Origin: a virus
Strand: one strand, 5' to 3'
DNA: 64,000 nucleotides
Virus record (IMG/VR): IMGVR_UViG_3300034073_005389
Coordinates: 297,491 to 361,490 of that record
Part shown: positions 14,349-52,184 of the stretch, one piece after another
How the letters are laid out: each line of letters begins with the position of its first letter
Position numbering within the stretch: the first letter of the stretch is position 1
Made by a program: the position numbers and the translations under genes
Notes under the pieces: generated by a model
Databases searched by the model: none
Told to the model about the DNA's origin: nothing
What the model saw: the letters and a program-made list of their open reading frames with translations, nothing else

Positions 14349-14586
14349 CTTCTTTGCTTTCATCAAATTTATCAAGTTCTACAGCTAACCAACCTTCTGC
14401 ATTTTCTAATGCTTCGTGAATGGTAGCGCATCCTTTAGTCTGTGGTAAAGATGTATCTCCTTCTACACATCCTACTAGCCACCATTTATTGGTAAAAAGA
14501 TCCTTGACCAAGGACACTTTGTGTGTTGGAGTAACACAAAGAGCCTTGGCTAAGGCAACAATTCTATTGTGAAGAGAATTTGTCAT
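14326..14586 (-). CDS. Hypothetical protein, 86 aa
   Basis: Not recognised. N-terminal helix, then WWLVGCVEGD and an acidic tail (DESKEDGDQERD). Overlaps the helicase stop (ATGA) upstream and the 14154 gene downstream, so it is translationally coupled to both. Confidence 0.8.
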   Translation of the reverse strand: MTNSLHNRIVALAKALCVTPTHKVSLVKDLFTNKWWLVGCVEGDTSLPQTKGCATIHEALENAEGWLAVELDKFDESKEDGDQERD

Positions 14587-16040
14587 TTACCACTCACCAA
14601 GAACAATTCTCTACGAGCCCTTGTATAAGCTACATAAGCCAAATTATTCTCTTCAATTCCTTTACCAACTTTGTAAGTATCTTTCAACATAAAGACTCGA
14701 TCTCTTTCTAGCCCCTTTGCCTTATGAGTAGAAGAAAGAATGACACGATCTTTATCGTCTCCATCCTTAAACAAGTGATTGATATTATCTTTCACTTCAT
14801 CCAAGGTCTTAGCTCCGTCACAAAGAACTCGCAAACATTCTGCCTTGTCAGAAACAATAGAAGAATCTCTACGAATATTTGCCAATCGAGCAACTTCCGT
14901 ATCTTCGTATTCTTCTAGCCAAGAAAGAAATCCAGCAACAGTCTTACTACTTGACTTTTTAATCAAAGAAGAAAGCTGCTGACCCATATCCCGACCTTGA
15001 ATATTAGCAGGAACTCTAGCCTTAAGCAAAGCCAAACACCACTTAATCAGTGGTGCATTAACTCTACTCAAAATAAAATCTCCAGGCTTAACCAAATTTT
15101 CCATCTGATTGACTGGAATCTCAGTTACTGAACCCTCTTCTGCATTAGGGGCAGCTTCAATTTCTGGAACCAGAGTTTGTGCTAGCTCTACAATGTTCTT
15201 AGCACAACGATATGTTACACTAAGAGGCATACGCTTGGAGCCAAGACGTTCTACAATATTGTCAATAGCGTTACTATCTGCTCCCCTGAATGAGTAGATT
15301 GCCTGATTTTTGTCACCAACGGAAATAATACGACCATTATCAGAAACTGAATTAAGCGCCAAATTAATTTGTGCGCTATTCAAATCCTGAGCTTCGTCAA
15401 TAAATACCATTCCGTATTTATCAAGTCTAAGATTCAAAACATTAGGAAGCCAAATCATATCATCAAAATCAACACGACTTGTATCTTTCTTAGTTGCTTC
15501 CATTACCTTGAGAACAGTAGTGGTAAATTGTTCACGAGTATCAGAACAAATATCTACCTGATGACGATCAATAATCTCATCAATTTGTTCAGTAGTATTA
15601 GCCAAATATCCCTTAGCCAAAGAGATTGCCTTAGCAAGATTAGTTCGCAGCTCGTAGTTATCTTCATCGCCACGATCTGCTTTAATATAAGCATCTAGCT
15701 TTTTGCTATCAGGTTGACTAAGCTTAGGAAATGCCCTGCGACAAGCAGCATATCCCAAACCATGCAAAGTCTTTACACTAACTTCAGAAGGCGCACGAGA
15801 TTCCAATTCAGTTTGAATAGACTTATTGAAAGCGCACATAAGGCTATTTTTGTTCTTAGGAACATGATAAAAACCTTCTACAATAGTAGAAGTTTTTCCA
15901 GTTCCTGCAAGAGCATCTACTTGAGTATTTCCATTTCCCTTGGCAATATCAGAAAAAATATCTTGCTGATATACAGACCAATTACGAGTTACTCGATTTT
16001 GCTTAATCGTCTGAGGATTATTAAAACGACGATAAGTCAT
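14583..16040 (-). CDS. SF1 (UvrD/Dda-like) DNA helicase
   Basis: Walker A ALAGTGKTS at 43-51, Walker B FIDEAQD near 213-219, motif III GDKNQAIYSFRGA at 242-254, and C-terminal STHKAKGLE and YVAYTRAR (motifs V-VI). At 485 residues it is a compact superfamily 1A helicase, translocating 3'-5' in known relatives, and likely serves phage replication or recombination. AUG at 16040 follows closely on the small gene upstream. Confidence 0.9.
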   Translation of the reverse strand: MTYRRFNNPQTIKQNRVTRNWSVYQQDIFSDIAKGNGNTQVDALAGTGKTSTIVEGFYHVPKNKNSLMCAFNKSIQTELESRAPSEVSVKTLHGLGYAACRRAFPKLSQPDSKKLDAYIKADRGDEDNYELRTNLAKAISLAKGYLANTTEQIDEIIDRHQVDICSDTREQFTTTVLKVMEATKKDTSRVDFDDMIWLPNVLNLRLDKYGMVFIDEAQDLNSAQINLALNSVSDNGRIISVGDKNQAIYSFRGADSNAIDNIVERLGSKRMPLSVTYRCAKNIVELAQTLVPEIEAAPNAEEGSVTEIPVNQMENLVKPGDFILSRVNAPLIKWCLALLKARVPANIQGRDMGQQLSSLIKKSSSKTVAGFLSWLEEYEDTEVARLANIRRDSSIVSDKAECLRVLCDGAKTLDEVKDNINHLFKDGDDKDRVILSSTHKAKGLERDRVFMLKDTYKVGKGIEENNLAYVAYTRARRELFLVSGK

Positions 16041-16649: not shown

Positions 16650-17768
16650 TCAGAACATATATCTAATATTACTATAAGGAGTATATCTGCTAATAATATC
16701 TTTCATTGTATTTTTTAAGTTTGATTTATCAGATTGAGAGTAGCTCAATACATTTGGCTTATTCCATTTAGGAACTAACTTTAGTGGACCATTAACCATT
16801 AAATTATGTGCCTTTGGTACACACTGAGAAATTGGCTCAAACATCTTCTCACTGTGAGTAAGAAAAATAATTTCATACGCCATTTGCTTTTTAGCCTTAT
16901 CTGATAAGGTGTCGTTAACTAGCGACAATAATTCACTATATTCATTTTTAAAATGATTTGTAATCACAATGGGGCTAAGATTAATATGCACCTCAAACCC
17001 AGCATCTACCAATTTATTGGCGGCATGAAGTCGATCAATAATCTTACTAGTATTTTGTTCTAGTATTTGTCGGTGATGCTCTGGCATTAATGACAATCTA
17101 ATTCTATGTTTATCAGGAAATTTGCAACCCTCAATAAAAACATCAATTTTAGATGATTTAGTAGCGAAACTAGTCATCACATGATGAGTATTATCAGCTA
17201 CCAAATTCATTACTTCTACCATATGACCGTGGTAGCTAGAATGCATAGTGGTACTATTACTAGTAACTACATCGCTATCACAACCTAAATCAATGGTAAC
17301 CATTTTATTATGGTGTTGATTTCTTTCTCGCTCGAATCTCTTCTTAGTTTCTTTAAAGAACTTTTCTTCACAAACTTCTTGATTTTGATCAATATAGATT
17401 GATAAATCTACCAATTTAAAAAGATCGTTATAAATCTTCAAGAAATTATTAGGATAATTTCTTTCTGTATAGCAGTAGCTACATCCAAATTTATAACAAC
17501 CTTGTTCCATCATTTGAGAAGGAAGAAAGTCTGTAGACCTACCATTACAATCTAAACTCCATTTAGCTTCTCTTTTTAAGAGTCCAACAAATCGTTTCTT
17601 TTGTAAGAAACGATCTTTAGGATGCAAGGAAATTAAATTGTAATTAGGATTGGTTAGCTCTGTATTCTTCTTGATAATAACTACTTGGCTAGTTGGATTA
17701 GCTGTCTTTAGATTTTGTGCTAAAGGAGAATTAATACAATCTTTATGCAAGAATAAAGTATTTTTCAT
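16650..17768 (-). CDS. Radical SAM protein, spore-photoproduct-lyase-like
   Basis: GCYKFGCSYCYTER holds Cx4CxxC followed by Tyr, like the iron-sulfur cluster site of SPL-type DNA repair lyases, which usually have Cx3CxxC. TIDLGCDSDVV and HIRLSLMPEHH-like strands fit a radical SAM barrel. The 372-residue length also fits. A role in DNA photoproduct repair or nucleoside chemistry is possible. The ATG at 17768 (MKNTLFLHKD) is preferred to the upstream TTG. Confidence 0.6.
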   Translation of the reverse strand: MKNTLFLHKDCINSPLAQNLKTANPTSQVVIIKKNTELTNPNYNLISLHPKDRFLQKKRFVGLLKREAKWSLDCNGRSTDFLPSQMMEQGCYKFGCSYCYTERNYPNNFLKIYNDLFKLVDLSIYIDQNQEVCEEKFFKETKKRFERERNQHHNKMVTIDLGCDSDVVTSNSTTMHSSYHGHMVEVMNLVADNTHHVMTSFATKSSKIDVFIEGCKFPDKHRIRLSLMPEHHRQILEQNTSKIIDRLHAANKLVDAGFEVHINLSPIVITNHFKNEYSELLSLVNDTLSDKAKKQMAYEIIFLTHSEKMFEPISQCVPKAHNLMVNGPLKLVPKWNKPNVLSYSQSDKSNLKNTMKDIISRYTPYSNIRYMF

Positions 17769-17769
17769 T

Positions 17770-18003
17770 TTATTGTCTGTATTCAAAATCGTGCCTAGCC
17801 TCTTCTAAAGAAGAAAAATACCTGCCCAAATAAAAAGAATAATGATGCAATTCATCATTCTCTACTTTAAGATTTTCATAATGAGTTGAATATGGAGCCT
17901 TTGAATCTGGTAGATATCTTAGTACAATTCTATGAGGAAACTCTCCTGGTCTCATACGAAAAGACTTTGAATCAATAATAGATGACTCATCAACTATTTT
18001 CAA
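17770..18003 (-). CDS. Hypothetical protein, 77 aa
   Basis: Not recognised. Arg/Tyr/His-rich (PHRIVLRYLPDSK; HHYSFYLGRYFSSLEEA). One nucleotide from the radical SAM gene and 4-nt overlap with the gene upstream. Confidence 0.8.
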   Translation of the reverse strand: MKIVDESSIIDSKSFRMRPGEFPHRIVLRYLPDSKAPYSTHYENLKVENDELHHYSFYLGRYFSSLEEARHDFEYRQ

Positions 18004-26320: not shown

Positions 26321-26914
26321 TCAATCATCAGAATTATTCTGATCTTCTTCTGCTTCCATTTCTCGAAGATACTCTACTTCTGATTCAGCTAAGAAATGCT
26401 CTAGCTCATTAACGTATTCTTCCAATTCATCAGCATTAGAATAATCACGATATTCATCGTGAAAACTACCATCTGTAGTATGAGCTACGCCCATAAAACG
26501 ATTACCTGACTCTAAATACTCCAGACGAATTCTAAGACCACGATCCTTATATTTATCATAAATATCTTCAAAAGCCGCTACTGGTGGTCCCCAAGCACTA
26601 TCAAAGTTTGATCTAAGTTCAAACTTATCGTGATCTTCTTCGAAAATTTCCAAATCATCAACTGGACCAACATCCCATTTAGTTCCCCAATTCTCTACAC
26701 ACCAATCATACCAAGATTTATATCCATATTTCTCTTGGTTTTGCTGCATCTTACTAGGCATATCGCCAGCTTCATTAGCATAAACTGCTTCAGTTTCAAG
26801 CAATTCTTGCGGGCATGGAACTAACTTTTGCAAAGACAATTTAGTCTCTGCAATCTCCTGAATTACATCTTTAGGTCCAGACAAAAATAAACTGTTTTGA
26901 CACCAATTAGGCAT
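26321..26914 (-). CDS. Api92/DUF1281-like protein, 197 aa
   Basis: MPNWCQNSLFLSGPKDVI, then WYDWCVENWGTKWDVG and FDSAWGPPVAAFE are hallmarks of the phage/plasmid Api92-like (DUF1281, YubB) family with a ferredoxin-like fold. Acidic C-terminal tail (EAEEDQNNSDD). Biochemical role unknown. A shorter paralogue lies at 27228-27719. Confidence 0.9.
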   Translation of the reverse strand: MPNWCQNSLFLSGPKDVIQEIAETKLSLQKLVPCPQELLETEAVYANEAGDMPSKMQQNQEKYGYKSWYDWCVENWGTKWDVGPVDDLEIFEEDHDKFELRSNFDSAWGPPVAAFEDIYDKYKDRGLRIRLEYLESGNRFMGVAHTTDGSFHDEYRDYSNADELEEYVNELEHFLAESEVEYLREMEAEEDQNNSDD

Positions 26915-27149
26915 TGCTGTTTTCCTTTACTCCAAAACGATCTTCGAACTCATTGCAAAGAAAAAAGTAATCAGGATGATCAGAAGAATTTCTCTTACAG
27001 AATAAATCTTTTTGACCATTTCCAATATAAACATATCCCACTTCAAATTCTTTACCAGTATTCTGTGCAATACGATACTGCCAAAAAATCTTATAATTAT
27101 TATCCTCTGCAATCTGATTCAATTCAGAACGTGAATAATATTGCCTCAT
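26907..27149 (-). CDS. Hypothetical protein, 80 aa
   Basis: Not recognised. Tyr/Phe-rich with GKEFEVGYVYIGNGQKDLFC. First gene behind promoter 27166-27193; overlaps the Api92-like gene by 8 nt. Confidence 0.8.
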   Translation of the reverse strand: MRQYYSRSELNQIAEDNNYKIFWQYRIAQNTGKEFEVGYVYIGNGQKDLFCKRNSSDHPDYFFLCNEFEDRFGVKENSNA

Positions 27150-27165
27150 GCCCTCTTACTTCCTA

Positions 27166-27193
27166 CTACTAAACTCTTAGATTGACCGATGGG
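27166..27193 (-). promoter_or_regulatory. Class A promoter for the 26907-26321 genes
   Basis: Box CCCATCGGTCAAT, 9-nt spacer, -10 TAGTAG then TAGGAAG. Confidence 0.7.
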
Positions 27194-27227
27194 AAGCCTC
27201 ACGATATCTCTATTTGTCGAGAGATAA

Positions 27228-27719
27228 TTAGCCTCCACGATAACCGCGATAATCTTCTCGAAGATCACGAAGAATTTTGCCGCCCTTTATCTCAAAAATT
27301 CCTTTGAATTGAGCACCTCGCTCATAATATTTGAGCAAAAATCTAACCGCAGGGTACTTGTCACTCATCTTATGAATTACTGGAATCGGAGGACTCCATG
27401 CAGAATCAAAATAATATGTGGCACGACTACGAGAACCAGACAATCTAGAACTAACTAGCTTAGATCGATAAATTCCCCACTTAGTCCCCCAATTATCAAT
27501 ACACCATTGATAACCGCCAGAATTAAATCCATCTTTAATATAATTGCCCTGCTCACGAGCAAGAGCTGCCATTTCATCCATTTTCTTAAAATTTTCAGGG
27601 TATGGAATGTACTTATTAGCACTTAAAACTTCCAAACCTTCTTGCGAAAATTCCATGAAATCTATCACAAAGATTTCTTTACCATAAACAAACAAATCTT
27701 GTGAACAATGATTAGGCAT
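27228..27719 (-). CDS. Api92/DUF1281-like protein, 163 aa
   Basis: Same family as 26321: MPNHCSQDLFVYGK, YQWCIDNWGTKWGIY, YFDSAWSPPIPVI and FKGIFEIKGG. Lacks the acidic tail and ends in an Arg/Gly/Tyr-rich segment (DLREDYRGYRGG). Probably a tandem duplication that diverged. Confidence 0.9.
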   Translation of the reverse strand: MPNHCSQDLFVYGKEIFVIDFMEFSQEGLEVLSANKYIPYPENFKKMDEMAALAREQGNYIKDGFNSGGYQWCIDNWGTKWGIYRSKLVSSRLSGSRSRATYYFDSAWSPPIPVIHKMSDKYPAVRFLLKYYERGAQFKGIFEIKGGKILRDLREDYRGYRGG

Positions 27720-27949: not shown

Positions 27950-28384
27950 TTAATCTTTAGTGTAGTAAATGTATCCGGTCTTACCCATTGTGTCATACGA
28001 CAATCCTAAATCAATTAGGTTCTGACCCAACTCTGAATCAGGATCTGCCTCAGTACGAATAGCAAAACTGCTTTTCTTGCCAAACATTCCACGACCAGAA
28101 TAATCTAAATCAACCGTATAGTCAAGGTCTGAGCCAGAAAACAATTCATATACTTGATCTTCAAGATCCTCAGTATCAGGACCAAACTTATCAGAATAAT
28201 TATCTTCTGCCCAATTATAAATTGCCTCAATCGCCCCAGGATTATCCTCTAGGAAATTAACCAATGAAGCCAGATTAGCCCCACTAGATCCAATTCTAAA
28301 AAACCTATTCCGATCTGTATAGCCCAAATGCTCTGACAAACAGATTAGATCATTTACAGAGGAATTTAAATCTTCAATCTTCAT
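27950..28384 (-). CDS. Hypothetical acidic protein, 144 aa
   Basis: Not recognised. Acidic alpha/beta protein: DRNRFFRIGSSGANLASLVNFL, SGSDLDYTVDLDYSGRGMFGK, ends GYIYYTKD. Directly downstream of the Gly/Tyr gene array. Confidence 0.85.
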   Translation of the reverse strand: MKIEDLNSSVNDLICLSEHLGYTDRNRFFRIGSSGANLASLVNFLEDNPGAIEAIYNWAEDNYSDKFGPDTEDLEDQVYELFSGSDLDYTVDLDYSGRGMFGKKSSFAIRTEADPDSELGQNLIDLGLSYDTMGKTGYIYYTKD

Positions 28385-28415: not shown

Positions 28416-28631
28416 TTATCCTTTACGACTAACAGTTCCATAACCGTCACCGAAACCATTACCGTAACGGTCACTATAATTATAACCGTAACCATAACCG
28501 TCACCGTCACCGCCACTGTAACCGTAACCGTTACCGTAACCTTCACCGCCAAAGCCACTGTAACCGTAACCGTAACCATTACCGTAACCGTAACCGTCAC
28601 GGCTTCCAACTAGCATAAAATATTCTTCCAT
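28416..28631 (-). CDS. Gly/Tyr-rich repeat protein 5, 71 aa
   Basis: MEEYFMLVG head, then GYGYGNGYGYGYSGFGG-type repeats, ending GYGTVSRKG. Last of five paralogues. Tyr and Gly at near-regular spacing with no hydrophobic core means disorder or beta-spine stacking. Possible self-assembly or phase separation (inference). No known family. Confidence 0.85.
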   Translation of the reverse strand: MEEYFMLVGSRDGYGYGNGYGYGYSGFGGEGYGNGYGYSGGDGDGYGYGYNYSDRYGNGFGDGYGTVSRKG

Positions 28632-28635
28632 ATAT

Positions 28636-28965
28636 TTACCTCTTACGACTAACAGTTCCGTAACCGCAACCGTCACTGTCACCATAACCGTAACCGTAAC
28701 CGTAACCGTAACCGTCACCACGACCATTACCGTAACCATTACAATTACCGTAACCATTACCGTAACCGGAACCGTCACCGGAACCGTCACCGGAACCATT
28801 ACCATTACCATTACCATTACCGTAACCATTACCGGAACCATTACCGGAACCATTACCGGAACCATTACCGGAACCATCACTGTAACTGTAACTGTAACCG
28901 TAACCGTAACCATTACCGTAACCGTAATGGTCACGGCTTCCAACTAACATAAAATATTCTTCCAT
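28636..28965 (-). CDS. Gly/Tyr/Ser/Asn-rich repeat protein 4, 109 aa
   Basis: Longest copy. The middle is GSGNGSGNG and NGNGNGSGDGSGDG, so Ser/Asn/Asp replace Tyr there, while both ends keep GYGYGYG. MEEYFMLVGSRD head and TVSRKR tail are shared with copy 5, its closest relative. The different length among paralogues points to repeat slippage. Confidence 0.85.
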   Translation of the reverse strand: MEEYFMLVGSRDHYGYGNGYGYGYSYSYSDGSGNGSGNGSGNGSGNGYGNGNGNGNGSGDGSGDGSGYGNGYGNCNGYGNGRGDGYGYGYGYGYGDSDGCGYGTVSRKR

Positions 28966-28969
28966 ATAT

Positions 28970-29242
28970 TTACCTCTTACTAACAGTTTCGTAACCGTAA
29001 CCGTCACCGTAACCGGAACCATCATCATAACCGTAACCATAACCGGAACCATAATCGTTACCGTAACCATTACCGTAACCATAACCGTTACCGTAACCAT
29101 TACTGTAGCCGTAACCGTAACCGTCACCATAACCACGACCATTACCGTAACCGTAACCATTACCGTCACCGCAACCGTCACCATTAAAGGAAACGTCACC
29201 GGAACCATAACCATTACCGACTAACATAAAATATTCTTCCAT
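28970..29242 (-). CDS. Gly/Tyr-rich repeat protein 3, 90 aa
   Basis: Head MEEYFMLVGNGYGSGDVSFN, then CGDGNGYGYGNGRG and YDDGSGYGDGYGYETVSKR. The C-terminal block matches copy 1 (29497), so these two share a recent ancestor or exchanged sequence. Confidence 0.85.
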   Translation of the reverse strand: MEEYFMLVGNGYGSGDVSFNGDGCGDGNGYGYGNGRGYGDGYGYGYSNGYGNGYGYGNGYGNDYGSGYGYGYDDGSGYGDGYGYETVSKR

Positions 29243-29246
29243 ATGT

Positions 29247-29492
29247 TTACCTCTTACGACTAACAGTTCCGTAACCGGAACCGCCACCGTAACCGTTACC
29301 GTAACCGTAACCGCCACCGTAACCGTTACCGTAACCGGAACCGCCACCGTAACCGTAACCGTAACCGTAACCGCCACCGTAACCGTAACCGTCACCGTAA
29401 CCGTTACCGTAACCGTCACTGTAACCGTAACCGTAACCGTAACCGTAACCGTCACCGGAACCATTACCGACTAACATAAAATATTCTTCCAT
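29247..29492 (-). CDS. Gly/Tyr-rich repeat protein 2, 81 aa
   Basis: Nearly pure Gly-Tyr with regular GGGYGYG blocks (YGGGSGYGNGYGGG) between the shared MEEYFMLVG head and GTVSRKR tail. The most regular of the five. Confidence 0.85.
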   Translation of the reverse strand: MEEYFMLVGNGSGDGYGYGYGYGYSDGYGNGYGDGYGYGGGYGYGYGYGGGSGYGNGYGGGYGYGNGYGGGSGYGTVSRKR

Positions 29493-29496
29493 ATGT

Positions 29497-29676
29497 TTAC
29501 CTCTTACGACCAACAGTTTCGTAACCGTAACCGTCACCGTAACCGGAACCATCATCATAACCGGAACCATAACCGGAACCATAATCGTTACCATAACCGT
29601 TACCGTAACCATAACCATTACTGTAGCCGTAACCGTAACCGTCACCATTACCAACTAACATAAAATATTCTTCCAT
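29497..29676 (-). CDS. Gly/Tyr-rich repeat protein 1, 59 aa
   Basis: First and shortest copy. MEEYFMLVGNGDGYGYGYSN head, then NDYGSGYGSGYDDGSGYG, ending YETVGRKR. Has its own AAGGA ribosome site. Downstream copies depend on stop-start proximity. Confidence 0.85.
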   Translation of the reverse strand: MEEYFMLVGNGDGYGYGYSNGYGYGNGYGNDYGSGYGSGYDDGSGYGDGYGYETVGRKR

Positions 29677-29702: not shown

Positions 29703-29737
29703 ATAATCCCCATCATCATTATGATGATGGGGATTAT
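29703..29737 (-). terminator. Long hairpin ahead of the Gly/Tyr array
   Basis: ATAATCCCCATCATCAT/ATGATGATGGGGATTAT, 17 bp with a minimal loop. It follows the stop of the 29743 gene. The T tract is weak, so it could also be a protective 5' or processing hairpin for the array mRNA. Confidence 0.7.
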
Positions 29738-29742: not shown

Positions 29743-30069
29743 TCAAAGCCCCCAGTCAGAAGAAACTGGAACCCTGAAAATTTCAGATTCCTTAGGAAAA
29801 TCTACAACATGATCCATCTTCCTAAGAGTAACGCTCTTACTCTTAGGATCTTTAAGCACACCGTCGAATCCACAAGATTCCCACTTAAAAACCCAAACTG
29901 CATTACTCAGTCGAACTCGACCATTTTCTTCTGTTACATCACCTGCAAAAACCCAACCACGATCTACCACAACAACACAACGATTACCAGAAGGAACTAC
30001 AGTTCCAACAGAATCCTTACGAACATAATCAACGCCATTAATCGAAATAGTTTCAACAATAGTATTCAT
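29743..30069 (-). CDS. Hypothetical protein, 108 aa
   Basis: All-beta by eye: SINGVDYVRKDSV, NRCVVVVDRGWVFAGDV, ending SSDWGL. Similar to small phage proteins of unknown role. AAAGGAG before the ATG. Confidence 0.85.
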   Translation of the reverse strand: MNTIVETISINGVDYVRKDSVGTVVPSGNRCVVVVDRGWVFAGDVTEENGRVRLSNAVWVFKWESCGFDGVLKDPKSKSVTLRKMDHVVDFPKESEIFRVPVSSDWGL

Positions 30070-41241: not shown

Positions 41242-41562
41242 CTATGAGTGCATGACGTCTTGTATCTTGAGCAGGGGCACTTTCCGAGCCCAATCCTCAT
41301 CAGTCTTTATGTCAGGATACTGAGTCCCATTCCACCAATAATAATGGGACTTAATTGCGCCAGATTCGTAATACCAGATGGATGCAGGACCGTCCTCACG
41401 ATGCCGATTGCCGTTGAGGTCCCATTCCTGGCGCATGACGGCGCCGGATTTGTAATAATGGATAAGTGCGGGACCGTCCTCACGATGCAACTTGCCTTTG
41501 AGGAACCATTCCTGGGACCTGATGGCGTTGGATTTGTAGTACATAAAGATCTTGGGTTCCAT
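41242..41562 (-). CDS. HREDGPA-repeat (MORN-like) protein, 106 aa
   Basis: Two and a half repeats of a roughly 24-residue unit: KLHREDGPALIHYYKSGAV, NRHREDGPASIWYYESGAI. This degenerate MORN-type beta-hairpin repeat occurs in large viruses and phages. Probable protein-interaction surface. Paralogue at 43001-43429. AGGAGG before ATG. Confidence 0.85.
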   Translation of the reverse strand: MEPKIFMYYKSNAIRSQEWFLKGKLHREDGPALIHYYKSGAVMRQEWDLNGNRHREDGPASIWYYESGAIKSHYYWWNGTQYPDIKTDEDWARKVPLLKIQDVMHS

Positions 41563-45985: not shown

Positions 45986-46016
45986 TTATTTAGGGTAAGT
46001 AACAACCTACCCTTCA

Positions 46017-46044
46017 CTTCTAATGAATTAGGTTAACCGATGGG
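46017..46044 (-). promoter_or_regulatory. Class A promoter for tRNA-Leu (CAA)
   Basis: Box CCCATCGGTTAAC, 9-nt spacer, -10 TAGAAG then TGAAGGG. Confidence 0.8.
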
Positions 46045-46062
46045 AAACCCTGTTCATAACAA

Positions 46063-46090
46063 TAGGCAGTTTAGACACATGCCCAGGTGT
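46063..46090 (-). promoter_or_regulatory. Class B promoter-like repeat, copy 1
   Basis: Minus strand ACACCTGGGCATGTGTCTAAAC then TGCCTA; the -10 is TCTAAA. Lies 20 nt upstream of the class A box for tRNA-Leu (CAA). Confidence 0.65.
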
Positions 46091-46166
46091 ATCTTACTAT
46101 AATCACCATGCTACCAAATGTCAACTCTCAAGTATTTTATAAATATATAGGCTGTCAATGGCAAGA

Positions 46167-46388
46167 TTAGATTTCCACCATTGCCAAACGCACATTGGTA
46201 AACGTATACGGAACACCATCCGGCGTCTTATCAGGAAGATAGGAAAGCAGCTTCCTAGCCGCTTCATCCCTATTAGGAGAAGTACGAATACACTCAAGCA
46301 TCAGTCGATACAAGGGTTCATCATTACCCAGCCAAAGACACACATTCCAAGCGTTGTAGTTCTTATGCCCGTTATACTTCTTAGACAT
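46167..46388 (-). CDS. Conserved phage protein 'YNGHKNYNAWNVCLWL', 73 aa
   Basis: The ATG at 46388 (MSKKYNGHKNYNAWNV). The NGxxNxxxWNVxLWLxND signature marks a small family widespread in phages (DUF7249-like in my memory). Function unknown. Confidence 0.85.
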   Translation of the reverse strand: MSKKYNGHKNYNAWNVCLWLGNDEPLYRLMLECIRTSPNRDEAARKLLSYLPDKTPDGVPYTFTNVRLAMVEI

Positions 46389-46413
46389 TTGTGCCTCCAC
46401 TAGACTTGAGTAG

Positions 46414-46734
46414 TTAGACCCACATTCCTTCGTGGAAAGGAACTACATTTCCATCCTTTTTCCGAAAAAACCATTTGAACTTTCGCTGAAAAAGATCTCC
46501 ACGAGAACCAATAGCCTGATTGATTCTCCTCTTGGTGGTTACACCCCTATAGTTGTTTGTAAGCAACTGAACATCCCCGTTCTTATTCCAAGTCACCACT
46601 GGAGTATTATGGTAAAACAAACCAATGGCATCAGCGGTAATACGAGCAACCCTCGTTGCCTTCTTACCACGAACATTCTTGCTATTCTTGCCATTCAAGA
46701 ACTGTTCCGCCGAAACATAGCTACAAGGAATCAT
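46414..46734 (-). CDS. Hypothetical basic protein, 106 aa
   Basis: Basic, beta-rich: GKKATRVARITADAIGLFYH, NGDVQLLTNNYRGVTTKRRI, FKWFFRKKDGNVVPF. Resembles phage nucleic-acid-binding unknowns. Not recognised. Confidence 0.85.
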   Translation of the reverse strand: MIPCSYVSAEQFLNGKNSKNVRGKKATRVARITADAIGLFYHNTPVVTWNKNGDVQLLTNNYRGVTTKRRINQAIGSRGDLFQRKFKWFFRKKDGNVVPFHEGMWV

Positions 46735-46744
46735 AAATACCTCT

Positions 46745-47014
46745 TCAACTATTAGAGTAATAGGTTACAATAACTGCTTGATATTCACCAGCAGTATTTA
46801 CCACAACTCCAAGTACCGCTCCCATTCCTCCAGGAAAAGAACTTCTCTCATAAGCAATAACATGCTTACGACCATGCATATAAGCATCTTCAGCAGAAGA
46901 AAATAGTTCTGGCAAAACCACAGGTTCTCTAGGAAACGGATTATGAAAACTATAAAAGGGAAGCCCATTAGAATAATGACCCTTTGGATTTAGGTCTAAA
47001 ACCTGAATGTTCAT
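46745..47014 (-). CDS. Hypothetical protein, 89 aa
   Basis: MNIQVLDLNPKGHYSNGLPF then a helix (SSAEDAYMHGRKHVIAYERS) and C-terminal strands (GAVLGVVVNTAGEYQAVIV). Ends four bases before the start of the upstream... gene order is 46745 then 46414. Not recognised. Confidence 0.85.
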   Translation of the reverse strand: MNIQVLDLNPKGHYSNGLPFYSFHNPFPREPVVLPELFSSAEDAYMHGRKHVIAYERSSFPGGMGAVLGVVVNTAGEYQAVIVTYYSNS

Positions 47015-47044
47015 TGTAAACCTCTTATAAGAAAACTTCTTGAT

Positions 47045-47198
47045 TATAAGATTAGGTATTTCAGAATAAGCCCCTGGCTACTTCCACTACAGAAGCGCGG
47101 AATCGAACCGCACGCAGTTTCTAGTTTCGTGCACAAAACTATACTTCTGCTTATTCAGATAAGTTAGCTACTCTTACCTTGAAATACCTAATCTTATA
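47045..47198 (-). ncRNA. tRNA-like RNA enclosed in a perfect 19-bp inverted repeat
   Basis: TATAAGATTAGGTATTTCA (47045-47063) is perfectly repeated, inverted, at 47180-47198. A further GAATAAG/CTTATTC pair lies just inside. The centre (47090-47149, minus strand) has an acceptor-like helix CAGAAGT/GCTTCTG, a hairpin TAGTTT/AAACTA and a canonical T arm GCGG-TTCGATT-CCGC, but no D arm and no standard anticodon loop. Class B promoter just upstream at 47210. No CCA follows. Confidence 0.6.
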
Positions 47199-47209
47199 AA
47201 CAAAAATAT

Positions 47210-47237
47210 TAGGCAGTTTATACACATGCCCAGGTGT
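47210..47237 (-). promoter_or_regulatory. Class B promoter-like repeat, copy 2
   Basis: Minus strand ACACCTGGGCATGTGTATAAAC then TGCCTA; -10 TATAAA. Drives the tRNA-like RNA at 47045-47198. Confidence 0.7.
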
Positions 47238-47271
47238 CAACATGATTGACTCCTTCATTCCAGAAACTATT

Positions 47272-47361
47272 TTACCACTTATACAAACACATAACAAAAA
47301 CAATACCACCCGAAACAAACCAAGAGCCAACCATAACCAAAAACCCAGTTTGTGCCGACAT
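47272..47361 (-). CDS. Tiny membrane protein, 29 aa
   Basis: AGAGG five bases before ATG at 47361. Single hydrophobic helix (FLVMVGSWFVSGGIVFVMCL) with a short basic end (YKW). Class B repeat lies 39 nt upstream. Could be a regulatory or toxic micropeptide. Confidence 0.6.
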   Translation of the reverse strand: MSAQTGFLVMVGSWFVSGGIVFVMCLYKW

Positions 47362-47399
47362 ACTAACCTCTATAGTTATGTGATTTGTTGAATACAAAA

Positions 47400-47432
47400 A
47401 GGCAGTTTATACACATACCCAGGTGTATAAAC
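47400..47432 (-). promoter_or_regulatory. Class B promoter-like repeat, copy 3, with palindrome
   Basis: Minus strand ACACCTGGGTATGTGTATAAAC. The copy is part of a 10-bp perfect palindrome, GTTTATACAC-N8-GTGTATAAAC (47405-47432), unlike the others, so a TATAAA is present on both strands. Precedes the 29-aa gene. Confidence 0.7.
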
Positions 47433-47437
47433 TACGC

Positions 47438-47620
47438 TCAGTCTTCGATCCCGCCTTTGCGGAAGGCTTGGAAGACTTTACCAATGAAATAAGCGGGGAT
47501 GCAGATGAGCTTGGGGGGATTATGCGCCTCGGGTCCGGCGAGAACCAAGATTTCGTATTCGTCAGTCTCCGTGTTGTATCCAACAAGAACGTCATCGTTC
47601 AGAACGAGTTTGTTTTTCAT
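47438..47620 (-). CDS. Hypothetical protein, 60 aa
   Basis: MKNKLVLNDDVLVGYNTETD, then AGPEAHNPPKLICIPAYFIG and a basic helix. AAAGGATAG before ATG. Beta-rich start. Not recognised. Preceded by a long structured leader. Confidence 0.8.
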   Translation of the reverse strand: MKNKLVLNDDVLVGYNTETDEYEILVLAGPEAHNPPKLICIPAYFIGKVFQAFRKGGIED

Positions 47621-47631
47621 GTGCTATCCTT

Positions 47632-47730
47632 TCAGAGTGAACTTTGAACCGCCATGTTTAGAGCAACAGAACAATCCATTCAGGAGTAACTTTGCACTAG
47701 ACACTTTGCCGCATTACGAATGATCCTCAT
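47632..47730 (-). other. Two tiny leader ORFs (16 and 15 codons)
   Basis: ATG at 47730 with GGAGG upstream encodes 16 residues (MRIIRNAAKCLVQSYS). Its TGA is directly followed by ATGG at 47679, encoding 15 residues that end at 47632, just before the 47438 gene. Possible leader peptides; no conservation check possible here. Confidence 0.35.
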
Positions 47731-47760
47731 CACAGCCTCCTTGTAGAATCACACACATTT

Positions 47761-47914
47761 GTGTATTATAATAAACCAACAAGCCGAGAGACTAAATAAA
47801 AATATGTCTCTCTTTCTTGCTGCAACAAGCAAACGATTATAGCTTATCTACTTGCAGGTAAATAAACCTTATCGTTTCTTTATAATCACTTGTTGGCTTA
47901 TTGTAATACACAAG
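47761..47914 (-). ncRNA. Long structured leader or small RNA
   Basis: The ends TTGTGTATTATAATAAACCAACAAG and its inverted partner at about 47890-47914 pair over roughly 25 positions, the differences giving G-U pairs. Inside are GAGAGAC/GTCTCTC and AAACGAT/ATCGTTT stems. Transcribed from the class B repeat at 47912-47939 into the 47438 gene. Confidence 0.55.
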
Positions 47915-47939
47915 GCAGTTTATACACTTGCCTAGGTGT
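47912..47939 (-). promoter_or_regulatory. Class B promoter-like repeat, copy 4
   Basis: Minus strand ACACCTAGGCAAGTGTATAAAC then TGCCTT; -10 TATAAA. Leads into the structured leader at 47761-47914. Confidence 0.7.
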
Positions 47940-47970
47940 TTGGGTTATTTGGTAAAAATAAGTGGGGCAT

Positions 47971-48036
47971 TTGGTAAAAATAGGATTTGCACCTATTTCT
48001 CCCTATCCAGGGCGAGTTAGCTATACTCCTTTACCA
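47971..48036 (-). ncRNA. Degenerate tRNA-like element
   Basis: Outer helix TGGTAAA/TTTACCA, a GAGT/ACTC hairpin, a CCC/GGG arm with a 6-nt loop, and a T-arm-like ATAGG-TGCAAAT-CCTAT. The anticodon arm is not standard and the T loop has TGCAAAT instead of TTCAAAT. Downstream of class B copy 5. A tRNA relic or a structural mimic. Confidence 0.45.
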
Positions 48037-48037
48037 C

Positions 48038-48170
48038 TATCCCCGGTCCTATTAGATTGATAGGTAATCTCACTAATAGGTATTAGGTAGTTTAGACACT
48101 TGCCTAGGTGTGTATGGCTATTCTCTGAAAGGCTCCCAGGTTACTATCCTCGGTCCTATTAGATTGACTA
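48038..48170. repeat. Direct repeat CTATCC(C/T)CGGTCCTATTAG
   Basis: Two near-identical copies of a roughly 24-bp sequence, at 48038 and about 48145, each followed by an inverted CTAATAGG or CTAAGAGG half that can form a hairpin. Each copy lies between two class B RNA units, so they may be terminators or processing sites. Confidence 0.55.
48084..48111 (-). promoter_or_regulatory. Class B promoter-like repeat, copy 5
   Basis: Minus strand ACACCTAGGCAAGTGTCTAAAC then TACCTA; -10 TCTAAA. Upstream of the tRNA-like element at 47971-48036. Confidence 0.65.
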
Positions 48171-48185
48171 AGAGGTAATAAAAAT

Positions 48186-48285
48186 GGCAACCATCCAAAC
48201 ATCTTTATCCACGGTTGCCATCACCGGATAAAGAAATAGCAACCATCTCAACATACTTTACCCACGGTTGCCATCACCGAGTAAA
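48186..48285 (-). ncRNA. Tandem H-type pseudoknot RNA
   Basis: Two units of about 52 nt. Read on the minus strand, unit 1 (48285-48238) is UUUACUC-GGUGAU-GGCAACC-GU-GGGUAAA, then about 12 nt, then GGUUGCU. Unit 2 (48232-48186) is UUUAUCC-GGUGAU-GGCAACC-GU-GGAUAAA, then 11 nt, then GGUUGCC. The helices interleave (a, b, a', b'), forming pseudoknots. One pair changes U-A to C-G, and others change to G-U only on this strand, supporting a real minus-strand RNA. Class B promoter at 48324-48351. No ORF. Confidence 0.75.
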
Positions 48286-48323
48286 GCTGGAACGGTTTCA
48301 GGTAAATCCGCCAACCAAAACTA

Positions 48324-48351
48324 TTAGGCAGTTTATCCACTTGCCCAGGTG
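48324..48351 (-). promoter_or_regulatory. Class B promoter-like repeat, copy 6
   Basis: Minus strand ACACCTGGGCAAGTGGATAAAC then TGCCTA; -10 GATAAA. About 40 nt upstream of the pseudoknot RNA. Confidence 0.7.
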
Positions 48352-48357
48352 TATTCC

Positions 48358-48528
48358 TCACGGCAAGAAATACCTTCCATCCACCGCATCAACCTTATCC
48401 AGCATATCCAGAATCTTGTTCTTCTCCTCGCCTTCCGACAATCCTCGAACCACCAACATCAGATTGTCCCAGGCATCCTGATCAATGCCGTATTCATCAT
48501 CCAAAAGAGACTCAATGAAGTTGAACAT
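48358..48528 (-). CDS. Small acidic helical protein, 56 aa
   Basis: The ATG at 48528 (MFNFIESLLDDEYGIDQD) has GGAGGTAAG upstream. Acidic helices, ends VDGRYFLP. Not recognised. The pseudoknot promoter follows its stop. Confidence 0.8.
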   Translation of the reverse strand: MFNFIESLLDDEYGIDQDAWDNLMLVVRGLSEGEEKNKILDMLDKVDAVDGRYFLP

Positions 48529-48565
48529 TGTGCTTACCTCCAATCCAACCCAACCTTGTCCCCTA

Positions 48566-48593
48566 CCTACAATCTCCCAAGTTTACCGATGGG
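48566..48593 (-). promoter_or_regulatory. Class A promoter for the 48358 gene
   Basis: Box CCCATCGGTAAAC, 9-nt spacer, -10 TGTAGG then TAGGGG. Confidence 0.75.
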
Positions 48594-48605
48594 AACCCCC
48601 ACTTA

Positions 48606-48636
48606 TTGCCAACAAAGCCGAAACCTTGTTGGCAAT
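48606..48636 (-). terminator. Hairpin after the 48641 gene
   Basis: ATTGCCAACAAGG pairs with CTTTGTTGGCAAT on the minus strand. Sits between the stop at 48641 and the promoter box at 48581-48593, but the T tract is weak. Confidence 0.65.
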
Positions 48637-48640
48637 CCTG

Positions 48641-48796
48641 TCAATCCTCTACCCGCTCCAAATAACTCTCCTCCTCATTAGAGGTTTTTTTGTAACCCGT
48701 AGCCACCACAATCTCTCCCGAACTGTCCTCCGAGAATACCGCATCAGGACAAACTTGCAACACCAGTTGCACCATTTCCGCAAAAGTGATCTTCAT
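48641..48796 (-). CDS. Small acidic protein, 51 aa
   Basis: MKITFAEMVQLVLQVCPDAV, then SEDSSGEIVVATGYKKTSNE. The TGATG overlap with the upstream gene couples translation. Function unknown. Confidence 0.75.
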   Translation of the reverse strand: MKITFAEMVQLVLQVCPDAVFSEDSSGEIVVATGYKKTSNEEESYLERVED

Positions 48797-48951
48797 CACC
48801 ACCCAACCTTGTCAGGAGATACCACCAAACAAAAATACGGATTCCCAGGTTTCATCAATCGCAACTTGTTTCCCAGCTTTCCCATAAAACAATACACGCC
48901 AGCATAACCAGAAACACTTGCATACACCAAATCACCAATCCGCAAGTTCAT
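48796..48951 (-). CDS. Hypothetical SH3-like protein, 51 aa
   Basis: The ATG at 48951 (MNLRIGDLVYASVSGYAG) with GGAGGC upstream. Short beta barrel pattern with GDLVYA, GYAGVYCFMG and LRLMKPG. Not recognised. Confidence 0.75.
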   Translation of the reverse strand: MNLRIGDLVYASVSGYAGVYCFMGKLGNKLRLMKPGNPYFCLVVSPDKVGW

Positions 48952-48990
48952 TATGCCTCCTGTTTTATCTCCAACCAACCGCTCCCCCCA

Positions 48991-49018
48991 CCTCTAATCA
49001 CCCAAGTTGACCGATGGG
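48991..49018 (-). promoter_or_regulatory. Class A promoter for the 48796/48641 genes
   Basis: Box CCCATCGGTCAAC, 9-nt spacer, -10 TAGAGG then TGGGGG. Confidence 0.8.
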
Positions 49019-49067
49019 AGCCGTTTGCACTTACCAGGAAGCCCATTACAGGCTTCCCAGTAAATAA

Positions 49068-49382
49068 TCACTTTTGAAGCGCCTTCTTTTCCATATTCTC
49101 CGTGGCAACTTCCACCAGTTGCCGAACATACTTATACATCATCACTCTGGCTTTATTCAAATGATTTCCCGTCAACTTCTTACCACTCATTAGCCATTTG
49201 GCATAATAAGTGCCAAGCCTGGCATCAGGTCCATTGAAGCCTTTGCCATTCGTGTGCAATGTGGTATTGCTGGTTTGCTCATCCATGGTTTGACGAGCAA
49301 AAATAGCCAATACCGCCCTCTCCACCGCATAATCATTGCAAAGCAACAAATAACGAATGTAATCCGGACTATTCTTTTCCAT
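49068..49382 (-). CDS. Conserved phage protein, 104 aa
   Basis: The ATG at 49382 (MEKNSPDYIRYLLLCND) with TGGAGG upstream. TNTTLHTNGKGFNGPDARLGTYY-like core, then WLMSGKKLTGNHLNKARVMM, a signature I have seen in unknown phage proteins. Helical, basic C-terminus. A GGGAAGCC/GGCTTCCC-type hairpin at about 49038-49061 terminates it. Confidence 0.8.
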   Translation of the reverse strand: MEKNSPDYIRYLLLCNDYAVERAVLAIFARQTMDEQTSNTTLHTNGKGFNGPDARLGTYYAKWLMSGKKLTGNHLNKARVMMYKYVRQLVEVATENMEKKALQK

Positions 49383-49416
49383 CTTTTCCTCCAAAAAAAG
49401 ATTTTCAAGAACTTGG

Positions 49417-49459
49417 ACGGAGGGAAAGGAATCGAACCTTTCCTACAACCATTCTCCGT
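49417..49459 (-). ncRNA. tRNA minihelix-like element (acceptor plus T arm only)
   Basis: ACGGAG/CTCCGT helix joined through about ten bases to GGAAAGG-TTCGATT-CCTTTCC. The T loop is canonical, but D and anticodon arms are missing. 43 nt. Lies between two genes on the same strand and has no own promoter; a processed tail or an RNA decoy is possible. Confidence 0.5.
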
Positions 49460-49468
49460 ATTCTCTAA

Positions 49469-49801
49469 CTACTTGCGCGAAATACCACCATTCTGCCCAC
49501 GACTCGCCACAAACTTATTGCTCCCAGCAAGATAATCAGCAATCCGCTTGCTCAATCGACCATAATCCTCATACCGATTGCTAATCTTAGCAAACACCTG
49601 CCCAATCAGCAATGGCTTCACCACCTTTGCGTTATTGTTCTCATCAAAAATACTATTCAAAGCATTCTCAATCAGAATATCCTCCGAAAGATTGACATTC
49701 TCCCATTCCACCAAATCCCCCATAAACTTATTCAGCGTAGCCTCATGATCAATCGCACCCGCGTCATTACGAATAACATAGGAAACAAAATCAATCTTCA
49801 T
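49469..49801 (-). CDS. RGxxGG-family small protein, 110 aa
   Basis: MKIDFVSYVIRNDAGAIDHE, then helices, ending FVASRGQNGGISRK. Clearly homologous to 50578-50925 (same start pattern and SRGQNGG) and more distantly to 3901 and 4316. Possible nucleic-acid-binding regulator. Confidence 0.85.
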   Translation of the reverse strand: MKIDFVSYVIRNDAGAIDHEATLNKFMGDLVEWENVNLSEDILIENALNSIFDENNNAKVVKPLLIGQVFAKISNRYEDYGRLSKRIADYLAGSNKFVASRGQNGGISRK

Positions 49802-49839
49802 AATCTTTTTTTCCTTTCAGCAACCAACCATTCCCCCCA

Positions 49840-49867
49840 CCTCTAATCACTCAGGTTGACCGATGGG
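49840..49867 (-). promoter_or_regulatory. Class A promoter for the 49469 gene
   Basis: Box CCCATCGGTCAAC, 9-nt spacer, -10 TAGAGG then TGGGGGG. Confidence 0.8.
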
Positions 49868-50300
49868 CTAACCCATACATACTTATCTGCCTATTTACCC
49901 ATTCACACATACATACATTTTTTCTGCCCGCTTACGCACACCCGTATACCCACCAACCATAAACATACTCTCCCATTCATACACACCCCTACTTACACTC
50001 CCCCAATAACCTATAAACTATAATAAATACATTCCACCCAAACTAACTACCCAATATCTCAATACCTACACCCCCACACACATCTATATGCAAAATTTAT
50101 TCTACCTATACCTTATACAATACCACTATTCCTTATTTCCATAACTTACATTTCTCCCGCCCCCATTCTTTATTTCCCTAAATCTGCACCCCATTTCTTT
50201 CTTATTTCTACTTATTTATAAAATAGATTATGTAGTTTAGTGTATATGTGTATTGATGTGTCTATGTTTGTGTGCAGTATAATAAATAAAAAAAGTTTGT
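49868..50300. other. Gene-free region, C-depleted on the minus strand
   Basis: From about 49870 to 50220 the plus strand contains almost no G while C, A and T are abundant. No ORF, no clear hairpins. From 50220 to 50300 the bias ends in a GT/TG-rich stretch. The G-rich RNA or strand would be the minus strand. Marks the change from AT-rich to GC-rich sequence. Confidence 0.7.
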
Positions 50301-50375
50301 TTTTGGCTAGGGCAAAAACCATTGTGTGCAGTTGTTTGAATCTATGCCTAAATGTGTTTTGCGCCCTAGCCAAAA
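50301..50375 (-). terminator. Long inverted repeat downstream of stacked terminators
   Basis: TTTTGGCTAGGGC at 50301-50313 pairs with GCCCTAGCCAAAA at 50363-50375 across a 49-nt loop. T tracts on both sides. Confidence 0.55.
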
Positions 50376-50460
50376 AGCATTTTTTTTAGGGCTAGGGCTT
50401 ATGCCACACCCAATTGCCAACCGAATGCATTTATCCAAAAACACAAACACAAAAAAAAAA

Positions 50461-50487
50461 GCCAATGGCGGGATTTCCGCCATTGGC
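50461..50487 (-). terminator. Intrinsic terminator, second of a stack
   Basis: GCCAATGGCGG/CCGCCATTGGC followed on the minus strand by ten T residues. Backs up the terminator at 50531-50554. Confidence 0.9.
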
Positions 50488-50530
50488 TTTCACACACGCA
50501 AAAAAAGACAAAAAAAAAGACAAAAAAAAA

Positions 50531-50554
50531 GCCCCAGCGCATTGGCGCTGGGGC
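50531..50554 (-). terminator. Strong intrinsic terminator of the 50578 gene
   Basis: GCCCCAGCGC/GCGCTGGGGC followed on the minus strand by nine T residues. Confidence 0.95.
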
Positions 50555-50577
50555 TTTGGGAGACGGTCAGTCAGGTT

Positions 50578-50925
50578 TCACCGAGCGATGCGCTCGACTC
50601 CGCCATTCTGACCACGCTGGGCGTGGAATCGCGTCTTGTCTCCCAAGTAATCCGCGATCTTCTTAGAGAATTCCCCGAACTGAGTGAACGAAACACCCTT
50701 TCCGAGAAGGTACTGGAACGCTTCGCCCACCACCAGGGGCTTGGGCATGCGTTTGTTATCGTGACGGTCAAAGACCGAGTTGACGGCTTCGCGGATGAGT
50801 TCGAACTCATCCGCCGAAGCGGACTCGAAAGCGATGAGGTCTTGCATGAACTTGTGGAGCGTTTGCTCGTGATCGATGGAACCATCATCCGAGCGAACCA
50901 CGTAGCTAGCGAGATTGATCTCCAT
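50578..50925 (-). CDS. RGxxGG-family small protein, 115 aa
   Basis: MEINLASYVVRSDDGSIDHE, then TLHKFMQDLIAFESA and FHAQRGQNGGVERIAR. Nearest paralogue is 49469. GGAGG before ATG. The GC-rich coding contrasts with the AT-rich copies at 3901 and 4316, so the copies have adopted local base composition. Behind four tandem boxes. Possible regulator (inference). Confidence 0.9.
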   Translation of the reverse strand: MEINLASYVVRSDDGSIDHEQTLHKFMQDLIAFESASADEFELIREAVNSVFDRHDNKRMPKPLVVGEAFQYLLGKGVSFTQFGEFSKKIADYLGDKTRFHAQRGQNGGVERIAR

Positions 50926-50970
50926 GACTGTATCCTCCGAAGGGCGTTGCGGCGTGATTGCCTGCCCTCA

Positions 50971-50998
50971 ATATTGGTTCTGCAGGTTGACCGATGGG
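50971..50998 (-). promoter_or_regulatory. Class A promoter, proximal of four boxes
   Basis: Box CCCATCGGTCAAC, 9-nt spacer, -10 CAATAT then TGAGGG. Serves the 50578 gene. Confidence 0.75.
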
Positions 50999-51019
50999 TG
51001 CAACCGGGACAAAAAAACC

Positions 51020-51047
51020 TTTACTCAGGGGCATGTTGACCGATGGG
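51020..51047 (-). promoter_or_regulatory. Class A box, second of four
   Basis: Exact box. The -10 position reads AGTAAA with no TGAG, so it may be a weak promoter or a bare factor-binding site. Confidence 0.6.
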
Positions 51048-51074
51048 TACAATCCATCTAAAAAACCAAAACCC

Positions 51075-51102
51075 CCGTTGAATAGCAGAGGTTGACCGAT
51101 GG
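51075..51102 (-). promoter_or_regulatory. Class A box, third of four
   Basis: Exact box. The -10 position reads TCAACG, a poor match. Followed by GGGG then T-rich sequence. Confidence 0.5.
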
Positions 51103-51121
51103 GCGCTTTGACGCGCAGGTA

Positions 51122-51149
51122 CATTGTAGATTAGAGGTTGACCGATGGG
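51122..51149 (-). promoter_or_regulatory. Class A box, fourth of four
   Basis: Exact box. -10 ACAATG, or TACAAT one base shifted. Confidence 0.55.
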
Positions 51150-51176
51150 AACCCGATTGCACTTGGCAAAAAAAAA

Positions 51177-51200
51177 TCCCAGGTGCCTAAGCACCTGGGA
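51177..51200 (-). terminator. Intrinsic terminator of the 51223 gene
   Basis: TCCCAGGTGC/GCACCTGGGA followed by nine T residues on the minus strand. Confidence 0.95.
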
Positions 51201-51222
51201 TAAGATAAGACTCACTTTAGTA

Positions 51223-51396
51223 CTAGCTGGTTCGCACCTGGTAACCCACCGCCTTCTCCAGGCTCTTGTCGGTTTGGCTCAGGTTCAGCTTGAGCGCTTC
51301 CTTACGAGCCGTAAGCAAACACTCGTACACCTTCACCACCGACTCAGACAAGGAGTTGCTTTCCAGGTCCAGCTGCAGACGAACGATCTTGTACAT
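51223..51396 (-). CDS. Hypothetical cassette protein, 57 aa
   Basis: The ATG at 51396 (MYKIVRLQLDLESNSLSE) with AGGAGG upstream. Helical, basic end (QTDKSLEKAVGYQVRTS). Own promoter, 5' hairpin (TCAGG/CCTGA) and terminator. Not recognised. Confidence 0.85.
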   Translation of the reverse strand: MYKIVRLQLDLESNSLSESVVKVYECLLTARKEALKLNLSQTDKSLEKAVGYQVRTS

Positions 51397-51425
51397 AGAG
51401 CCTCCTATCAGGAATGACCCTGACA

Positions 51426-51453
51426 CAGTAGTATTGCCTGGTTGACCGATGGG
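51426..51453 (-). promoter_or_regulatory. Class A promoter for the 51223 cassette
   Basis: Exact box, 9-nt spacer, -10 CTACTG then TGTCAGG, which opens the 5' hairpin. Confidence 0.75.
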
Positions 51454-51469
51454 TGCGATCCATTAAAAC

Positions 51470-51497
51470 TTGCTCAGGTACAGATGTACCTGAGCAA
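51470..51497 (-). terminator. Terminator of the 51519 cassette
   Basis: TTGCTCAGGTAC/GTACCTGAGCAA followed by TTTTAATGG on the minus strand. Confidence 0.9.
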
Positions 51498-51518
51498 GTT
51501 AGGCTAAGCTACTACCTG

Positions 51519-52079: not shown

Positions 52080-52111
52080 AGGAACCTCCAAACAAAGCCG
52101 TGATTGGCTCA

Positions 52112-52139
52112 CCTATGTTTGTGCAAGTTGACCGATGGG
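52112..52139 (-). promoter_or_regulatory. Class A promoter for the 51519 cassette
   Basis: Exact box, 9-nt spacer, -10 CATAGG then TGAGCC, followed by AGCC/GGCT hairpin. Confidence 0.8.
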
Positions 52140-52156
52140 TTCAAGCCACTGAAAAC

Positions 52157-52184
52157 GCTCTTGAGACCATGTGGTCTCAAGAGC
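52157..52184 (-). terminator. Terminator of the 52190 cassette
   Basis: GCTCTTGAGACC/GGTCTCAAGAGC, then GTTTTC on the minus strand. Confidence 0.9.

Follow-up and report, generated by a model that had tools for sequence, protein, structure and literature searches.

Gene linkage across viral contigs gives good support to the conclusion that five tandem Gly/Tyr repeat genes in the window, the 64,000-nucleotide stretch analysed here (bases 297491–361490 of a 361,490-base virus record), belong to a phage module of two near-obligately linked genes, being tandem copies of the second. The first gene of the module encodes a small partner protein, and the second encodes a chain of Gly-X dipeptides (GX).

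Five minus-strand open reading frames (ORFs), GX genes A–E (Table 1), fill positions 28416–29676 exactly, which bears out the initial annotation in both the number of genes and their coordinates. Each encodes a MEEYFMLVG head, a (Gly-X)n core and a short basic tail, where X is mainly Tyr, Asn, Ser or Asp: the cores contain 150 Gly, 80 Tyr, 33 Asn, 29 Ser, 28 Asp and 15 other residues, so that Tyr makes up 43%, Asn 18%, Ser 16% and Asp 15% of the non-Gly positions. The initial annotation had taken both ends to be constant. The head is indeed identical in all five proteins, and these are its only copies in the 361,490-base record even when up to three mismatches are allowed, but the tail varies, being TVSRKR in B and D, TVGRKR in A, TVSKR in C and TVSRKG in E. 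Genes B–E each start 4 nt past the preceding stop codon and carry GAGGT before the ATG, supporting the translational coupling proposed earlier for this part of the array; gene A stands separate, 66 nt behind the upstream gene and with its own AAGGA. The TRF scores (394–404 across the array region), the in-frame head and tail in all five genes and the recurrence of the architecture in unrelated phages argue that the array is not a product of chance. A relaxed repeat pattern applied to the whole record gave one further match, a GGTGCT (Gly-Ala type) run. Sequenced phages contained no match to the 24-kb region by Megablast, and viral contigs none to the exact back-translated pattern of the MEEYFMLVG head; no close relatives were found for the downstream neighbour of the array (27950–28384), and PADLOC, NCBIfam and PHROGs returned nothing usable for the GX proteins. 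Matches of GX proteins to Pfam TrAA12 were discarded as an artefact, nearly all being below the cut-off and of low complexity.

Table 1 Features of the partner–GX locus in the window (positions of the window)
Feature	Position	Strand	Description
Partner gene	29743–30069	minus	108 aa; divergent DUF6948-like; predicted Sm/LSm-like fold
Hairpin	29703–29737	minus	Perfect 16-bp stem, between partner and GX gene A
GX protein A	29497–29676	minus	59 aa
GX protein B	29247–29492	minus	81 aa
GX protein C	28970–29242	minus	90 aa
GX protein D	28636–28965	minus	109 aa
GX protein E	28416–28631	minus	71 aa; last gene of the array

Directly upstream of the array, on the same strand, lies the partner gene, which the first reading overlooked as part of the same system and which is single-copy in the record (its own match, E = 1.1e-34). 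The hairpin between the partner and gene A (−29.3 kcal/mol, z = −6.7 versus shuffles) is absent from a listing of canonical intrinsic terminators and may be a terminator, an attenuator or a processing site of the GX transcript. Also beside the array are two paralogues with an Api92-like DUF1281_C domain (26321–27719). Elsewhere in the window, eleven tRNA genes are singly scattered over 3327–45985 (five tRNA-Leu, four of those with anticodon TAA), and the same region contains an RNA ligase (5935–7014), a UvrD-like helicase (14583–16040), a spore photoproduct lyase-like protein (16650–17786) and an 84-bp tandem repeat of 1.9 copies with 81% matches (41383–41538). Over 46000–64000, the G+C content rises from 0.36 to 0.55–0.59 toward the contig end, long phage-like ORFs disappear, GC-rich minisatellites are present and an MYG1/UPF0160 ORF scores 256 bits (57040–57900); this part is probably of foreign, cellular origin or the result of a chimeric join.

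At least 120 stretches of viral contigs matched a pattern of four Gly-Tyr codon pairs, and the GX architecture, namely a short head, (Gly-X)n and an optional tail, was present in more than 100 viral contigs, often as tandem genes whose heads and tails are constant; L008 and L035 each have five copies. The relative closest to the window, L080, carries two copies with an EYFYPIG head and a TISTRTRRR tail. The homologue search suggested at the outset thus produced many GX relatives, none with a known function and so none pointing to an unrelated one. Unsupervised clustering of the neighbouring ORFs singled out two families, present at 21 and 20 loci when the window is counted and both always less than 2 kb from a GX gene; the first includes the window partner and the second is Pfam DUF6948. 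Searches with the partner only covered IMG/VR, with a DUF6948 query and a window-type query, and a scan of GTDB genomes. A GX gene lay downstream of the partner at 78 of 80 loci for the DUF6948 query and 74 of 80 for the window-type query (the best 80 of 480 and 333 relatives, some contigs being near-duplicates), and at 40 of the 48 GTDB loci. The median distance from partner to GX was 14–23 nt, nearly always no more than 150 nt, and partner loci without GX were mostly contig ends or had a short or degenerate GX gene. Control windows elsewhere in the same loci contained a GX run in only 2 of 476 cases. In the reverse search with GX alone, the partner was found just upstream at 69 of the 78 loci with enough upstream sequence. 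The pair occurs in named phages, including the Rheinheimera Barba phages, the Pectobacterium phages Taid, Ymer and five more, Dickeya phage Setonix, podovirus MW202898 and Chlorobiaceae phage CV-1-33.

Some GX proteins bear an added folded C-terminal domain, one of which is DUF7666, and in these proteins the GX chain may serve as a spacer. A recurring C-terminal domain of the form KSxNGxxVYxIDGVPTLIDxVxGNVAKGxILxxDLT... is fused to GX in L143, L151, L190, L316 and others, from viral contigs and from metagenome-assembled genomes of gut-type bacteria; the one member tested had no Pfam name above the cut-off. The phrog_18306 family combines a DUF6948 domain (155–231) with a GX-like match (76–134, E = 0.0076), and could be a natural fusion of partner and GX, but this match was too weak to be used.

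The window partner gave no match above the gathering threshold to Pfam PF22253 (DUF6948). Comparison of its family with the DUF6948 family by hhalign gave a probability of 96 and E = 1e-9, and on this profile comparison together with synteny and fold we label it DUF6948-like despite the missing Pfam match. Typical DUF6948 members, followed by a GX gene downstream, far exceed the Pfam cut-off. Among the best 80 loci of each viral set, the GX start overlapped the partner stop in a characteristic way, with a spacing of −13 nt at 56 loci of the DUF6948 set and of −1 nt at 67 loci of the window-type set. The overlap is usual rather than universal, the window itself having a 66-nt gap that holds the strong hairpin. 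The partner sets contained 63 (DUF6948), 59 (window-type) and 34 (GTDB) distinct complete first GX proteins. A P(V/I)G head was present in 56 of 59 proteins of the window-type set versus 1 of 63 of the DUF6948 set, and a basic tail in 50 of 59 versus 4 of 63, indicating that the GX head and tail follow the partner subfamily; shared descent of the whole unit would give the same pattern. The window GX proteins match the window-type lineage in their basic tail, but their head reads MLVG rather than P(V/I)G, with the EYFYPIG of L080 as an intermediate.

AlphaFold models were built from two separate alignments, one for the window member (pLDDT 84.5) and one for DUF6948 proper (pLDDT 96.4). Both are small and mostly beta, plus a helix, and for both the top 50 PDB entries by VIA Z are all Sm/LSm proteins or Sm-based designs. 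The best Z scores are 8.7 (rmsd 1.5 over 61) and 8.6, and the score at rank 50 is still 7.0–7.4, compared with the usual 4–5 for models that have no clear match. No Foldseek E value fell below 1e-3, and a partner profile run against PDB sequences gave nothing significant. The weak Pfam matches of DUF6948 members include LSM14 (0.015) and the ataxin-2 Sm domain (0.035), in the same direction as the models. Together, the models predict an Sm/LSm-like fold for the partner. By eye, and thus approximately, the DUF6948 consensus shows neither the canonical Sm1 Asp-x-x-Asn nor the Sm2 Arg-Gly at the expected loops; as these RNA-contact residues are not seen, RNA binding by the partner is not to be assumed.

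Close relatives differ in GX order and, by multiples of 6 nt, in GX length, in agreement with the active repeat dynamics read earlier from the window alone. For 115 Barba phage records, the length variants listed for the region are +6, +30 and +42 nt, and in the fetched records the change sits in the GX gene. Among the Pectobacterium phages, the length of the GX gene varies from 162 to 270 nt in 6-nt increments, next to a partner of constant 399 nt; Amona and Ymer, whose partner DNA is identical (399/399), differ in GX length and order. Between related phages that have the same partner DNA, GX is rescrambled by whole dipeptide units. Across 146 arrays, heterozygosity by hexamer position was 0, 0 and 0.07 for the Gly codon, the two zeros following from the array selection criteria, and 0.46, 0.36 and 0.09 for the X codon. 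Silent sites are thus near-uniform within an array (0.07, 0.09) whereas amino-acid-changing X sites are mixed (0.46, 0.36), and the Gly codon differs between arrays, which use GGC, GGT or others for the same protein pattern. The window arrays show higher third-base variation at X (0.06–0.47), as Asn is mostly AAT and Tyr mostly TAC. Aromatic residues make up a mean of 31–44% of X, none of 139 arrays has more than 80% of one residue at X, and the window-type relatives have 42% Tyr, 21% Asn, 18% Asp and 9% Ser. His accounts for at most 1.5% of X, though it is one base from the Tyr, Asn and Asp codons. From these patterns we infer that fast turnover sweeps silent variation while selection keeps a mixture of aromatic, acidic and polar residues at X; composition, rather than order, looks to be under selection, with order free. 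Targeted mutagenesis of X codons was not favoured as a source of the variation, since X varies among a few codons only and the reshuffling of a small set of hexamer types accounts for it. The GX chains have a Tyr-sticker and Gly-spacer make-up, in line with the earlier comparison of their composition with that of phase-separating proteins.

In relatives, the module recurs next to YqaJ, SSB, RecT, Erf, DnaB, RusA, ThyX, ribonucleotide reductase, C5 methylase and DEAD-type helicase genes, a neighbourhood of early DNA metabolism. The initial annotation had also raised capsid or biofilm-like decoration, which gained no support, as the recurrent neighbours examined included no recognisable structural genes. 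Judged from gene content, the replication and recombination setting fits intracellular self-association better than a virion role.

These observations allow us to propose, tentatively and by analogy with known Sm proteins, that the partner and the GX chain self-associate into an assembly or condensate that would organise or protect phage nucleic acid. We suggest that the module may be a split, two-gene form of the arrangement 'Sm ring plus low-complexity tail', as in Hfq and certain eukaryotic LSm proteins. The folded partner would be the multivalent hub, and numerous weak Tyr/Gly contacts would come from the GX chain, held via its short head and, in the window lineage, its basic tail. Hub and chains would then self-associate in the infected cell early in infection, and the resulting assembly would most likely organise or protect phage nucleic acid. 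The repeat could reshuffle freely because, in this proposal, only composition and length matter, and additional GX copies, as in the window, would raise dose and valency. The broader claim, that this is an unrecognised system in phages of many bacterial groups in which an Sm/LSm-like hub and a co-translated, hypervariable chain of Gly-Tyr dipeptides, selected for its composition alone, form a ribonucleoprotein or nucleoprotein condensate, is one that we put forward with greater reserve.

The same repeat dynamics might serve a counter-defence device, in which the folded protein and a hypervariable sticky chain would sequester or poison a defence protein of the host, or its signal, in the course of an arms race. 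Fast GX turnover between close relatives, the early-gene location and the patchy spread across many phages and hosts speak for such a device, which could also work through assembly. We consider it unlikely, however, because the order of X looks free and its composition kept, unlike escape from a specific recogniser, and because the linkage is to one partner and not to defence or anti-defence genes; PADLOC, whose library lists defence rather than counter-defence, gave no match. Alternatively, the repeat might matter as nucleic acid, with the partner binding RNA or DNA that serves as sponge, autoregulatory site or recombination hotspot, and with translation being incidental. This is rather improbable given the conserved reading frame, start codon, head and tail, the different Gly codons (GGC, GGT, others) that arrays use for the same protein pattern, the restriction of length changes in close relatives to multiples of 6 nt and the scarcity of His at X (at most 1.5%, one base from Tyr, Asn and Asp codons), even though silent third positions are near-uniform within arrays, GGC is commoner in arrays than elsewhere in these loci and the predicted fold of the partner is common among RNA-binding proteins.

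That GX chains are virion parts, for instance capsid decoration or a tail adhesive, is very doubtful: short GYGYGYG stretches do occur within some larger, structural-looking phage proteins, but the module sits among the DNA-metabolism genes from YqaJ to ribonucleotide reductase listed above, and a tail fibre gene adjoins it in the Pectobacterium phages only, on the opposite strand. The Barba phage paper (PMC6715854) contains no proteomics bearing on a virion location of GX. The constant head and tail flanking a variable core, present in tandem copies, recall precursors of modified natural products with a leader, a core of repeats and a follower; yet no modification enzyme is found among the recurrent neighbours, the constant partner has no enzyme-like match and the sole radical SAM match among the scanned window proteins lies about 20 kb off, which leaves this explanation highly improbable. 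Neutral junk is barely credible: hexanucleotide slippage clearly occurs, but head, tail and frame are conserved across unrelated phages, as is the start overlap, the composition is held while silent sites are near-uniform, and the linkage to the partner is near-obligate.

The partner–GX pair is common, with hundreds of partner relatives in viral contigs alone, but almost escapes notice: GX is masked by low-complexity filters, contigs break off within the GX gene (at 21 of 208 loci) and trypsin hardly cuts the chain, which has few Lys or Arg residues. Gene 25 of Chlorobiaceae phage CV-1-33 (L129, 2783–3028) is annotated as MAMAMALA..., apparently GX in the wrong frame. Within the mostly open-access literature covered, no paper dealt with DUF6948, DUF7666 or Gly-Tyr repeats of phages. 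If GX condenses, the pair would offer a small natural example of evolution preserving composition while letting order go, and with it a direct test of the sticker-and-spacer view, as well as a phage parallel to the RNA granule proteins that combine Sm domain and tail. The Rheinheimera Barba phages, with 115 sequenced isolates, are amenable to immediate genetics.

The partner belongs to the same superfamily as DUF6948 (PF22253), the window member being too divergent for Pfam. In its predicted fold it resembles Sm/LSm proteins, including LSm4, LSM14 and ataxin-2, which carry an Sm domain with a low-complexity region and are tied to RNA granules. Unlike these granule proteins, it shows no significant membership at the sequence level and no RNA-contact residues were seen, and the low-complexity part is a separate gene. 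The GX chain itself is similar in its Tyr/Gly/Ser/Asn composition to FUS-type prion-like domains, and shares Gly at every second residue with the (GX)n of silk fibroin, in which X is mainly Ala or Ser; no homology to either is claimed, and the GX proteins differ from both in being short, phage-borne and Asp-containing. Sm folds and low-complexity tails are each familiar ideas; what appears to be undescribed is their division between two co-translated phage genes, one of them for a hypervariable dipeptide chain. In the Hfq protein of Acinetobacter baumannii, an Sm core is followed by 12 GGFGGQ repeats and an acidic tip, and the number of repeats matters (PMC11617691); the disordered tail of Hfq tunes its Sm core (PMC5606850), and its C-terminal region can form an amyloid-like motif (PMC10590398). 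The phage module shares with A. baumannii Hfq an Sm-fold core, here predicted, and a long Gly/aromatic low-complexity repeat with acidic residues. It differs in being encoded by two genes rather than as one chain, in a repeat unit of 2 rather than 6 residues and in its Sm signature residues; RNA binding is known for Hfq, while for the phage partner the Sm-like fold is a prediction.
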